Source: Limnohabitans sp. (GTDB lineage Bacteria > Pseudomonadota > Gammaproteobacteria > Burkholderiales > Burkholderiaceae_C). Taken from it: 64,000 nt of DNA. A program made the position numbers and the translations under genes. The DNA lies in assembly GCA_009693505.1 (NCBI GenBank), contig SHXD01000003.1, positions 1-64,000 on the forward strand, written 5' to 3'. Positions 56,579 to 60,839 of the stretch are shown here, in pieces. The notes under the pieces were generated by a model that did not search any database, had not been told where the DNA came from, and worked only from the letters and a program-made list of their open reading frames with translations. Position 1 is the first letter of the stretch, and the number at the start of each line of letters is the position of its first letter.

Positions 56579-56691
56579 GCGTCTTATTTTTGACTTGCTA
56601 AAATATTATTATTCAAGACTTATTGATGCTTCATTGACCAAATCGCTTGGAAATTTCATTAAAGGCTTGACGTTTCGAGCCGATTCAATAG

Positions 56692-56759: not shown

Positions 56760-57329
56760 ATGACAGAAAATGTTCACACACACGGTGCTGCTCAAGCAGC
56801 ACCGGTCAATTCGGGCATGCCCAATCGATACGATATTTTATTTCTCATCCTTTTAGCTTGCGTCATGGCCACGGTGTCATGGGTTGGCGTTCTGGCTTAC
56901 AAAGAGGGGTACAAAAACGAAGTCACCAAGCAAAACGGCGAAGCCTGGATGAAGTGGATGAAAGCCAACAGCGAAGCCCGTACCCAGGCAGGCTTCAGCG
57001 TTGAAAATTGCGCTGCGAGCGAAACGGAGCGCAAACGTTGGGGCGACTGCTTCAAGGAACTGACAGAAAAAGTGGCACCCCTGAACAATCTGACCAACCC
57101 ATTTTTAAATGTGCCGGTTCATTTTGTTGCCAAATGCGACCCCAAGGACAGAAGCACTATTGGTGCCATCTTTCTTGAAAAACTGGTGGCAAACCCGCCT
57201 GGCTCGGCTATTCCGGTCACAGCCTCTCAGTTGGTAGACACCGATCCCATCGACACCAAATTAAGCATAAGGCTGACGGTTTGCGACAAGGGTGGCTACG
57301 CCAACAAAGTTGATGAATTTGATTTCTAA
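56760..57329 (+). CDS. Small single-pass membrane protein of unknown function, linked to the K+ channel
   Basis: Not recognised. The likely start is the ATG at 56760 (MTENVHTHG), giving 189 residues; the longer frame to 56595 runs through promoter sequence. One transmembrane helix at about 25-47 follows a short polar N-terminus; the 140-residue C-terminal part is soluble and carries four cysteines (C84, C97, C126, C175), so two disulfides are possible if it is periplasmic. The gene is 11 bp before the channel gene, which suggests a partner or auxiliary subunit, but there is no direct evidence. Confidence 0.7.
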   Translation: MTENVHTHGAAQAAPVNSGMPNRYDILFLILLACVMATVSWVGVLAYKEGYKNEVTKQNGEAWMKWMKANSEARTQAGFSVENCAASETERKRWGDCFKELTEKVAPLNNLTNPFLNVPVHFVAKCDPKDRSTIGAIFLEKLVANPPGSAIPVTASQLVDTDPIDTKLSIRLTVCDKGGYANKVDEFDF

Positions 57330-57340
57330 GGACCACGATC

Positions 57341-58969
57341 ATGCAAATCAATGACTTAGAAGCCCAACTCATCACCGACCATGAAGCCCACATTTCTAGC
57401 GATTTACCGTTTCGCGAATGGCTTTATTGCTGGCTGTTAAACCCTCACATAGAGGGCAATTATCAAAAAACCATCGACCGTTGGATTGGCATCTTGATTG
57501 TGGCCAATTTGTTCGCACTGATATTCGAGCAAGTTCCGGCCATTAATGAACTTTACTCAACTTGGTTTCATTACTTTGACGTGGCCTCTGTGGTCATTTT
57601 CAGCATTGAGTACTTGGTTCGTTTCTACCTAGCGCCCGAGGACGAGGAGTTTAAAAAGCACCGATTCTCGCGGGCCAAATATGCCACCAGTCCCTTTGCC
57701 ATCATTGATTTGATAGCCATCCTGCCTTTCTTTTTGCAAGCCTTTATTTCTATTGACTTGCGCTACCTTAGGTTCTTGCGGCTGCTGCGAATCTTGAAAC
57801 TCTTCCGAGTTTTAATTCCAGCTTACAAAGCGTTCATCATTGCCAACAAAGGCCGCACCTTCCGCCAGCGCGTGCATGCTCTGGTGTTTCCCAGTGCCTA
57901 TGGTGGCGACTTGCACCACCTTTACGACTCTTTCATTGTGGTTTGGGTGGTCATCTCTGTGTTGGCCGTGATCTTGGAATCTGTGCACGGCATTCACTAC
58001 TTGCTGAACATGGAGTTCCTCATTTTGGATGCCATTGCGGTTTCCATCTTCACCTTTGAGTACTGCCTTCGCATGTACTGTTGCGTTGAAGAGCCCGGCT
58101 ACAAAAAGGCCGTTACGGGAAGGATCAAACTGGCCAAATCCACCTCGTCCATCATCGACTTATTGGCCATTGCACCCTTCTTCTTAGAGGTGTTCTTGAA
58201 CCACCTGGTTGACTTGCGATTCATGCGGGTGTTCCGCTTGCTCCGATTGCTCAAGCTCACGCGCTATACAGGTGCCACACAATCACTGATGAAAGTGATC
58301 GCTCGCGAATGGCCTGTGATGGCCGCCTCGGCTTTTATTATGTTACTGCTTGTGGTCATGACCGCCAGCTTAGGCTATTTGTTTGAGCACGAAGCTCAGC
58401 CTGAAAAGTTTGAGAACATTCCCCAATCCATTTACTGGGCGGTGATCACACTGGCCTCTGTGGGTTATGGCGATATATCACCCGTCACACCGGCTGGCCG
58501 CGCCATGACCATTGTGCTGGCTTTGATCGGCATTGGTATTTTTGCGATCCCAGCGGCGCTTTTGTCCTCTGCTTTCAGTGACCAACTCAAAATGGACCGA
58601 GAGGCCTTGGTGAACAAGCTTTACGAAATGCTGTCAGACGGACACATTGACGAAGATGAGGCTTTGTACATCAAAACAGAAGCAAAGCGCTTGCACTTGA
58701 GTGATGAAGAAATAAAGCTCTTGATTGAAAGAGCTAAGCGAGAGCGCGAACTCATGGACGATGTTTCTATCTTGCCGCTGCATAAAATTGCATCCAATAC
58801 AGACCACACCATCGAGCACTACAAACATTTGCTAGGTCAAGTCAGGCAACTTAGCTTGCTAACAGACCAAGAAAAGTTTCAGTCTGCAGTAGACAACTCC
58901 GAAAGATTGACGGAAACAGACAAGAAGCTTTGGACCTTGATTGCCCTTCAGCAATCATCTTCTAAATAA
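57341..58969 (+). CDS. Voltage-gated potassium channel with two tandem voltage-sensor domains
   Basis: A 542-residue inner-membrane protein. First voltage sensor: S1 about 46-63, S2 76-97 (FSIEYLVRFY), S3 118-138 (IIDLIAILPF), S4 141-158 with basic residues at every third position. Second sensor: S1 195-214, S2 224-246 (FTFEYCLRMY), S3 268-288 (IIDLLAIAPF), S4 291-308, again six basic residues. Only the second is followed by a pore: S5 323-347, filter TLASVGYGD at 370-378, S6 386-412. The C-terminal cytoplasmic part has an acidic SDGHIDEDE stretch (432-440) and helices to the end. AAGGA precedes the ATG. ureD begins 11 bp after its stop. Usual Kv proteins have one sensor per chain, so the duplication is odd. 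Confidence 0.9.
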   Translation: MQINDLEAQLITDHEAHISSDLPFREWLYCWLLNPHIEGNYQKTIDRWIGILIVANLFALIFEQVPAINELYSTWFHYFDVASVVIFSIEYLVRFYLAPEDEEFKKHRFSRAKYATSPFAIIDLIAILPFFLQAFISIDLRYLRFLRLLRILKLFRVLIPAYKAFIIANKGRTFRQRVHALVFPSAYGGDLHHLYDSFIVVWVVISVLAVILESVHGIHYLLNMEFLILDAIAVSIFTFEYCLRMYCCVEEPGYKKAVTGRIKLAKSTSSIIDLLAIAPFFLEVFLNHLVDLRFMRVFRLLRLLKLTRYTGATQSLMKVIAREWPVMAASAFIMLLLVVMTASLGYLFEHEAQPEKFENIPQSIYWAVITLASVGYGDISPVTPAGRAMTIVLALIGIGIFAIPAALLSSAFSDQLKMDREALVNKLYEMLSDGHIDEDEALYIKTEAKRLHLSDEEIKLLIERAKRERELMDDVSILPLHKIASNTDHTIEHYKHLLGQVRQLSLLTDQEKFQSAVDNSERLTETDKKLWTLIALQQSSSK

Positions 58970-59811: not shown

Positions 59812-60098
59812 ATCGCCACCAACTGGCGAATGCCTTTGGCTTGCATCTCATGGCCGGGGCCCTTGGCAATCACCTCGCCGCGTTCCATCACCATGTAGGC
59901 GTCAGCCAACTCTTGTGCAAAGTCATAGTACTGCTCGCACAACAACACAGCCATGCGTTGGCCTTGCAAACCCACATCCGCCAATTTGCGAATCACTCGG
60001 CCAATGTCTTTGATGATGCTTGGCTAAATGCCCTCAGTGGGCTCGTCCAAAATAAGCAGCTTGGGCTTGGCCGCTAATGCACGCGCAATGGCCAACTC
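59808..60098 (-). pseudogene. urtE: Remnant of urea ABC transporter ATPase gene urtE (C-terminal part, amber-interrupted)
   Basis: Encodes the last ~95 residues of Urt[24 protein letters not shown], then a TAG (60026-60024), then in the same frame PSIIKDIGRVIRKLADVG, VLLCEQYYDFAQELAD and VMERGEVIAKG to a normal TAA. The TAG stands where the family has glutamine, so a CAG to TAG change explains it. Walker A and the ABC signature are gone. The remnant is joined in frame to the urtA fragment. UrtE cannot function. Confidence 0.88.
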
Positions 60099-60839
60099 TT
60101 TGTAGAAAGGCACATTGGAGTCACCGTTGATGGTGGACACCACAGCAGTTTTACCGCCAGCTGAAAATTTCTTCACATCTGCCACAATCGTTTGGTAGTC
60201 TGAATGGCCAAAGGGTGTGTATTTTTCGTCGATGTCAGAATCTTTCACGCCTTTGCTCTTCAAGTAAGCGCGCAAAATTTTATTGGTAGTACGTGGGTAC
60301 ACATAGTCGGTACCTAACAACACCCAACGCTTGGCAGAGCCACCGTCTTTGCTCATCAAATAGTCAACCGCAGGAATAGCTTGTTGGTTTGGTGCTGCAC
60401 CTGTATAGAAAACGTTTTTAGACAGCTCTTCACCTTCGTACTGCACGGGGTAGAACAGCAAGCCGTTCATTTCTTCAACCCCTGGCAACACAGACTTGCG
60501 TGACACAGAAGTCCAGCAACCGAAAATCACGGACACTTTGTCTTGACCCAAGAGTTGCTTGGTTTTTTCAGCAAACAAAGGCCAGTTAGAAGCAGGATCG
60601 ACCACCACGGGTTCGAGCTTCTTGCCCAACACACCGCCTTTGGCGTTGATTTCATCGATGGCCATCAACACGGTGTCTTTCAACACGGTTTCAGAAATAG
60701 CCATGGTGCCAGACAAGCTGTGCAAAATGCCCACTTTGATGGTGTTAGAAGTTTGAGCTTGTACAGAGAAAGACAAACCACCTGCTACGAGGGCAGATGC
60801 AAGGGCCAAGGCTTTGAGATTGCCACGACGATTCAACAT
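60099..60839 (-). pseudogene. urtA: Truncated urea ABC transporter substrate-binding protein gene urtA
   Basis: Encodes the first ~247 residues of UrtA: signal peptide (to about residue 29), [48 protein letters not shown] and [14 protein letters not shown], then switches without frame change into the urtE remnant (junction near 60092-60098). Full UrtA is about 420 residues, so the C-terminal lobe is lost. urtB, urtC and urtD are absent between the two pieces. The joined frame reads to the TAG at 60024 and would give a 271-residue hybrid. Ligand binding is unlikely. A deletion of several kilobases is the simplest cause. Confidence 0.88.

Follow-up and report, generated by a model that had tools for sequence, protein, structure and literature searches.

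Voltage-gated potassium (Kv) channels carry one voltage sensor domain (VSD) per pore unit, two-pore channels (TPCs) alternate sensor and pore, running VSD-pore-VSD-pore along each chain and dimerizing, and VSD-only proteins, such as Hv1 and the voltage-sensing phosphatases, have no pore. The sensor of Shaker displays the pattern R-R-R-R-K-R at three-residue spacing in S4, together with a phenylalanine and a glutamate in S2 and an aspartate in S3. Animal channels can be accompanied by auxiliary subunits with a single transmembrane (TM) helix, such as KCNE and Nav beta, and models of K+ channel gating assume four sensors per pore. TPCs contain two repeats of the canonical 6-TM unit (PMC8665364). 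The window, a 64,000-nucleotide stretch of Limnohabitans sp. DNA, encodes a channel subunit with two complete VSDs and one pore, in the order VSD1-VSD2-pore.

The coding sequence (57341..58969, on the forward strand, as are all features of the channel and its upstream neighbor) starts with ATG and specifies 542 amino acids, arranged as VSD1, VSD2, pore, and C-terminal helices. A Shine-Dalgarno-like AAGGA recognized by eye (57328..57332) lies 8 nt before the ATG and overlaps the stop codon of the upstream gene. VSD1 (S1–S4, residues 42–160; 57464..57820) contains E90 and R94, the motif IIDLIAILPF (121–130), and six basic S4 residues, R141, R144, R147, R150, K153, and R156 (57761..57808). VSD2 (S1–S4, residues 189–308; 57905..58264), delimited by Pfam, conservation, and the structural model, contains E240 and R244, IIDLLAIAPF (271–280), and R293, R296, R299, R302, K305, and R308 (58217..58264). 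It is followed by the S4–S5 linker, S5, pore helix, filter, and S6 (residues 309–416; 58265..58588), with the selectivity filter SVGYGD at residues 373–378 (58457..58474). Between the sensors lie only 28 residues (161–188; 57821..57904), presumably cytosolic and modeled with a short helix at 174–182, which leaves no room there for S5-pore-S6. These motifs, and the restriction of S5, filter, and S6 to the second half, are as a first-pass annotation of the DNA had read them. The C-terminal region (417–542; 58589..58966) is helical in the model and resembles DUF533, TerB, and DUF1707 (E 0.02, 0.08, and 0.089), all below Pfam cut-offs.

When the full channel was searched against Pfam, Ion_trans (PF00520, E 2.8e-46) was matched in two stretches and Ion_trans_2 (PF07885, E 1e-18), which defines the pore part, once. 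Residues 1–170 alone matched Ion_trans at 56.8 bits (E 2.5e-15, cut-off 25) over profile positions 4–111 of 241, and residues 171–542 alone at 113.1 bits over positions 2–236, nearly the whole model. Searched by itself against the PDB, VSD1 hit Kv4.3, Kv4.2, and KCNQ2 chains in their voltage sensors (E 8e-7 to 6e-6), and VSD1 and VSD2 are identical at 48 of 113 positions (42%; BLAST E 1e-24). An AlphaFold monomer model built on an alignment of 39 family members (alignment A1) shows ten long helices in the expected order, a four-helix VSD1 (42–63, 73–100, 118–135, and 140–168) and then a six-helix channel, with a mean pLDDT of 75.5, a pTM of 0.64, values of 75–88 in the ten-residue blocks of VSD1, and values below 50 in the filter. 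Since Foldseek matches of this model to Kv channels came without residue ranges, the VSD-likeness of VSD1 rests on the half-versus-half, PDB, and Pfam matches; with the four model helices, these bear out the earlier claim that the first four hydrophobic segments form a voltage-sensor fold and that both S1–S4 signatures are complete. The polypeptide thus has what is expected of a Kv channel, namely an S1–S6 unit over the Pfam cut-off, a (T/S)VGYGD filter, and basic S4 residues with S2/S3 countercharges, but two complete VSDs per pore unit in place of one.

The search for VSD-VSD-pore homologs that the first-pass annotation had proposed yielded 78 non-redundant tandem proteins, defined by one match stretch from residue 30 or earlier to residue 460 or later with a score above 500; truncated relatives and two irregular loci (L039 and L064, below) were left out. 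In VSD1, F87, E90, R94, D123, R144, R147, R150, K153, and R156 are present in all 78, R141 in 75 (with a gap in the other three), and position 80 is always acidic (D in 74, E in 4). In VSD2, F237, E240, D273, and all six S4 charges are found in 78 of 78 and R244 in 77, and the filter is likewise found in all 78. The VSD1 signature residues are also kept in three second copies of the gene (t2) and in one further locus (L173). Both sensors match Shaker in the R-R-R-R-K-R spacing and in the S2 phenylalanine and glutamate and S3 aspartate. Mean pairwise identity among 39 sequences is 0.635 for VSD1, 0.671 for VSD2, and 0.804 for the pore part, the highest of six parts. In comparisons of the window with its three closest relatives, dN/dS was 0.049, 0.119, and 0.108 for VSD1, 0.187, 0.155, and 0.196 for VSD2, and 0 for the pore. 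In distant pairs, where synonymous sites are near or at saturation, the VSD1/VSD2 values, for pairs in which both could be obtained, were 0.050/0.083 (L034), 0.057/0.056 (L035), and 0.134/0.084 (L004, VSD1 higher). VSD1 thus appears constrained about as much as VSD2, not clearly more, and the invariance of its sensor residues together with purifying selection makes a decaying extra domain unlikely.

Of 60 genomes near the window, its own included, 14 encode a full-length tandem channel, and all 14 belong to the 36 of the same genus; an additional same-genus copy (G031) is cut by a contig end. A draw of 399 genomes from the family contained nine with an unbroken full-length copy (E up to 1e-100) and one, G600, with a copy split over two frames. 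In wider draws, 369 genomes at class level (E cut-off 1e-20) and 372 at phylum level (E cut-off 1e-80, a threshold that would pass over distant kin), both sensors and the pore were matched in one stretch only in the window's genome. All other rows of these two draws that extend into the pore start no earlier than residue 147. In some class rows, residues 17–156 are matched apart from the pore within one short frame, which is the way a single-sensor channel aligns to a tandem profile; in one of these rows (G358) the locus runs off the contig, and those of the best class loci that were examined for domains have one VSD each. Exact peptide patterns of the query retrieved 81 relatives from the GTDB species collection, 80 of which were kept. 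By record title these are mostly Comamonadaceae and other Burkholderiales, with four from Beijerinckiaceae/Rhizobiales (L095–L097 and L103), and the lowest-ranked are three flavobacterial single-sensor channels. A plasmid search returned 12 records, none covering 80% of the query; the best, at 69%, is a distant tandem channel on a Gemmobacter aquarius plasmid (138 of 410 residues identical, 34%), annotated 'ion transporter', so that at least one tandem member stands in the public record under that plain name. Its VSD1 lacks F87, R141, K153, and R156, and its VSD2 lacks R293 and R296. By these searches, the tandem layout is patchy and mostly betaproteobacterial, and sensor charges can go in channels far from the main family.

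Two sets of candidates for still longer arrays were rejected. Matches of about 2050 bases at several loci, which suggested triple-sensor channels, proved to run from a tandem gene on into a distinct single-VSD gene downstream of it, and open frames of 683 and 671 aa (L135 and L136) have one VSD, preceded by an N-terminal stretch that looks untranslated by eye.

Several loci are recorded in their own right. A contig classed as viral (L185, 1–4425; IMGVR_UViG_3300047512_000173) carries a tandem channel, 61% identical and cut at the contig start, near genes that are phage-like by eye; it may mark the edge of a prophage, or host DNA may have been misclassified. In L039 (4983–6452, a MAG), the in-frame match skips residues 98–153, that is, S3 and most of the VSD1 S4. 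The tandem genes of L157 (the G600 copy) and L064 are split across two frames, by decay or sequencing error. In L155 (1282–2706; G698), a VSD2 and pore frame is nested among tandem channels (99/61) with no in-frame VSD1, which may have been lost or may be masked by a break in the frame. Frames that are transposase-like by eye immediately precede the Gemmobacter channel (L186, 4725–5659), at the place where the companion gene described below would be expected.

In a tree of 99 VSDs, inferred by a quick method from only 139 columns, the VSD1s formed one group (26 rows, t2 copies included; SH-aLRT 99) and the VSD2s with VSD1-less paralogs another (32 rows; SH-aLRT 100). Here and in the paralog tree 22 of the 39 A1 rows were picked, and 14 of 39 in the Gemmobacter tree. 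In a 95-row set, from which L143, L138, L155, and L145 had been left out before approximately unbiased (AU) tests, the VSD1 group had a support of 94, not starred, and a tree that joins VSD1 and VSD2 to the exclusion of other channels was not rejected (AU p 0.637). With the VSD1s together and the VSD2s together, one old fusion is the simplest reading of how the tandem layout arose; descent of VSD1 from VSD2 and descent from a different Kv channel are both compatible with the AU tests. The first-pass annotation had pointed to internal duplication on the strength of the similar halves; the similarity holds, and duplication is neither shown nor excluded. A recent internal duplication is not accepted as established fact, given the grouping of the VSDs and the AU result.

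Seven single-sensor paralogs (L016, L111, L112, L113, L114, L156, and L161) are open frames of 391–417 aa without VSD1. They and the Gemmobacter channel share, by eye, the pattern of the VSD1–VSD2 linker of tandem channels. The paralogs are sister to the tandem and t2 channels (97/87), and the Gemmobacter channel, on a long branch (1.82), is placed outside tandem channels and paralogs together (100/95). An alternative to this placement had an AU p of 0.054, and without Gemmobacter two other placements had p of 0.152 and 0.247. With the Gemmobacter channel outside, loss of VSD1 in the paralog line is the simpler reading, and the trees lean toward it without settling the matter.

The first-pass annotation had overlooked a companion gene just upstream (56760..57329), which ends 11 nt before the channel ATG and encodes a 189-aa protein with one TM helix and a domain of four conserved cysteines; the longer listed ORF starts at a TTG at 56595. 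In its model (pLDDT 90.4), one 49-residue helix (residues 23–71) is followed by a small beta domain, and the TM part, judged by eye, spans about residues 23–45 (56826..56894). The cysteine domain is likely periplasmic. A companion lies upstream on the same strand at 83 of 87 tandem loci, with a median gap of 26 nt, and, counted by distinct channel protein, it lies immediately upstream in 75 of 79. As to the four misses, two (L041 and L065) show, by eye, a companion C terminus at the contig edge, one (L106) is cut 5 nt upstream, and at one (L088) no companion was found in the 425 nt readable upstream. Across 52 aligned companions, identity to the window's copy is 23–88%, a far greater divergence than that of the channel; C97, C126, and C175 never vary, and C84 hardly does.

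A companion profile search of 399 family genomes, apparently the same draw, returned 10 matches, every one beside a tandem gene; the 10 genomes are the nine with a full tandem channel plus G600 with its broken frame. Among 398 phylum genomes, the profile matched only the window's genome and G1169, from another family within the taxonomic order of the window. In the 10 kb read there, a tandem channel occupies a 543-residue frame directly behind the companion; a prediction of pairing that could have failed was thus borne out without use of the channel as a query. In each genome with a t2 copy (G506, G607, and G745), the single companion adjoins the other tandem gene and not t2. No companion was matched in the whole genome of G682, which has only the VSD1-less type, or in the available flanks of the VSD1-less paralogs, and by eye none lies alongside the Gemmobacter channel.

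No described relative of the companion emerged from the libraries searched: no PDB fold matched at E 0.001 or better (259 did at E 10), no PDB sequence better than E 0.37, and no family over its cut-off for the members searched, five in Pfam, four in NCBIfam, and three in PHROGs (E 0.1). A pilin-like identity, suggested by the helix-then-sheet order, was rejected, as no type IV pilin is among the best 50 of the 259 fold matches, and so was an FtsL-like one, since FtsL_2 matched L095 only (E 0.00069; 19.9 bits, below the cut-off of 24.6) and over the TM region only.

In the window, the companion–channel pair lies between an ABC transporter operon (by eye) and urease genes (UreD by Pfam), and a permease resembling that of the window lies upstream in 31 of 73 clustered loci (cluster identity by eye). 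Nearby on the reverse strand, the beginning of an ORF (60024–60839) resembles a urea ABC transporter binding protein, and its end carries an ATPase-like motif (by eye), a composition such as would result if a deletion or misassembly had joined pieces of two transporter genes. Promoter-like sites (2, against a shuffle mean of 2.9) show no excess, and the seven terminator-like sites (shuffle 3.2, sd 1.8) are spread over the two strands, most of them within genes. In Limnohabitans sp. Jir61 (G607; L181, 6177–15043), the pair belongs to an ion-channel island of about 8.9 kb, which reads companion, tandem channel, two single-sensor channels (filters TSGYGN and SGWGN), a DUF4337 protein, a TTGYGD channel, a sodium-channel homolog, and a second tandem channel. 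The sodium-channel homolog matches PDB chains named 'Ion transport protein' (E 4e-70) and a NavAb fusion (E 7.5e-67), and TLESWAD was read in it by eye. Variants of the island occur at seven loci (L182, L054, L056, L060, L067, L071, and L100); the interval from one tandem gene to the other is without the sodium gene in both L182 and L071, and in L182 also without the TTGYGD gene, and a sodium-channel-type cluster was counted in 7 loci. The Jir61 island hints at membrane-potential signaling, without being evidence for it; the window's genome has none of the other Ion_trans genes of the island.

We propose that each subunit comprises ten TM helices, VSD1, a short linker, and an ordinary six-helix Kv subunit of VSD2 and pore. 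With one pore loop per chain, four chains would be needed for each K+ pore, which would then be ringed by eight voltage sensors, in line with the octet of sensors that the first-pass annotation had deduced; K+ selectivity is predicted from the filter. As both PF00520 matches in the window's genome (97.25% complete) fall inside this ORF and none elsewhere, the channel is, with regard to PF00520-type channels, probably a homotetramer. VSD2 would gate the pore via the S4–S5 linker, as in other Kv channels. The S4 of VSD1 is modeled as one long helix that continues to residue 168 and points to the pre-S1 helix of VSD2, so that helix 140–168 and then helix 174–182 may provide a path by which VSD1 biases VSD2. 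Movement of VSD1 would shift or steepen the voltage dependence set by VSD2, rather than open the pore directly, and the companion would join the channel complex as a one-TM auxiliary subunit, as the gene pairing suggests. That VSD1 is a working, coupled second sensor and its neighbor an auxiliary subunit is the best explanation of the whole, and we regard it as reasonably probable. A point against it is that VSD1 is dispensable in the VSD1-less paralogs, which keep VSD2 and the pore. The charges missing from the Gemmobacter VSD1, the higher dN/dS of VSD1 in the L004 pair, the middling confidence of the monomer model, and the lack of a companion at L088, at the t2 copies, and beside the Gemmobacter channel also weigh against it. 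A bolder version, in which both sensor tiers move and gate, giving a voltage dependence far steeper than with four sensors or two separately tuned set-points, and in which a dedicated one-TM subunit and, in some Limnohabitans, the sodium-channel island complete a membrane-potential kit, is offered tentatively.

VSD1 might instead be a structural or docking module, for membrane insertion, assembly, or as a platform for the companion, without voltage-driven movement. In keeping with this, the 391–417-aa paralogs combine VSD2 and pore with neither VSD1 nor a companion in their available flanks, G682 has the VSD1-less type and no companion, the Gemmobacter VSD1 lacks half of its S4 charges, and the mean pairwise identity of VSD1 is slightly below that of VSD2. 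However, a passive scaffold would not require F87, E90, D123, and five S4 charges to be invariant across the 78 proteins, and in the three t2 copies, which have no companion, VSD1 retains all its charges; we therefore consider this account unlikely, though it deserves weight. It is very unlikely that VSD1 takes over pore gating in a neighboring subunit, competing or alternating with VSD2 at one site: the sensors are alike in sequence and S4 pattern, but VSD1 has no S4–S5 linker and S5 of its own, and its S4 enters the 28-residue linker to VSD2. Scarcely credible is a proton- or cation-permeating, Hv1-like domain fused to a K+ channel. VSD-only proteins such as Hv1 can conduct, but the site of the S1 selectivity aspartate, which we take to be D112 in Hv1, seven residues before the S1 glutamate, is N56 here, invariant in the 39-row alignment and serine in the t2 copies (aligned by hand). 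Chance hydrophobic segments or an assembly chimera of two channel genes, in favor of which nothing was found, are refuted by the Pfam and PDB matches of VSD1 alone and by the same VSD1-VSD2-pore order in 78 non-identical sequences from isolates (e.g., Limnohabitans sp. MMS-10A-178, Rim11, and Jir61) and MAGs.

If VSD1 is indeed a working second sensor, an eight-sensor channel would test how sensors share energy with the pore and whether extra ones bring added charge, a shifted set-point, or cooperation, and the VSD1-less relatives make removal of VSD1 a natural experiment. The companion, if an auxiliary subunit, would serve a voltage-gated channel of bacteria, and the searched libraries offered it no relative in sequence or fold.

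The first-pass annotation knew of no described bacterial family with this layout, and among the matches listed from PMC full text, in which subscription journals are mostly absent, none describes it under tandem, double, two, extra, or eight voltage sensors; PMC matches about Limnohabitans or clustered bacterial Na/K channels offered nothing of relevance. PDB matches align VSD2, the S4–S5 linker, pore, S6, and a TxGYGD-type filter over about residues 194–416, and in the best 60 of 264 the best stretch never begins before residue 191, the tandem channel having an extra VSD in front. Residues 204–395 match NF040645, the hyperpolarization-activated K+ channel of methanogens, at 67.1 bits against an equivalog cut-off of 300. 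The companion is reminiscent of KCNE and Nav beta in combining one TM helix with a soluble domain and in being encoded beside a voltage-gated channel, but differs in having no sequence or fold match over threshold in Pfam, NCBIfam, PHROGs, or the PDB. As in VSD-only proteins, VSD1 is not directly attached to an S5, but it is fused ahead of a full Kv subunit, so that a pore is present, and it has N56 in place of the Hv1 aspartate. As in TPCs, two VSDs lie in one chain, but the tandem channel has a single pore and a single filter, and 28 residues between its VSDs. The pore part of the tandem channel is of the Kv kind, and the rule of one sensor per pore unit is broken.
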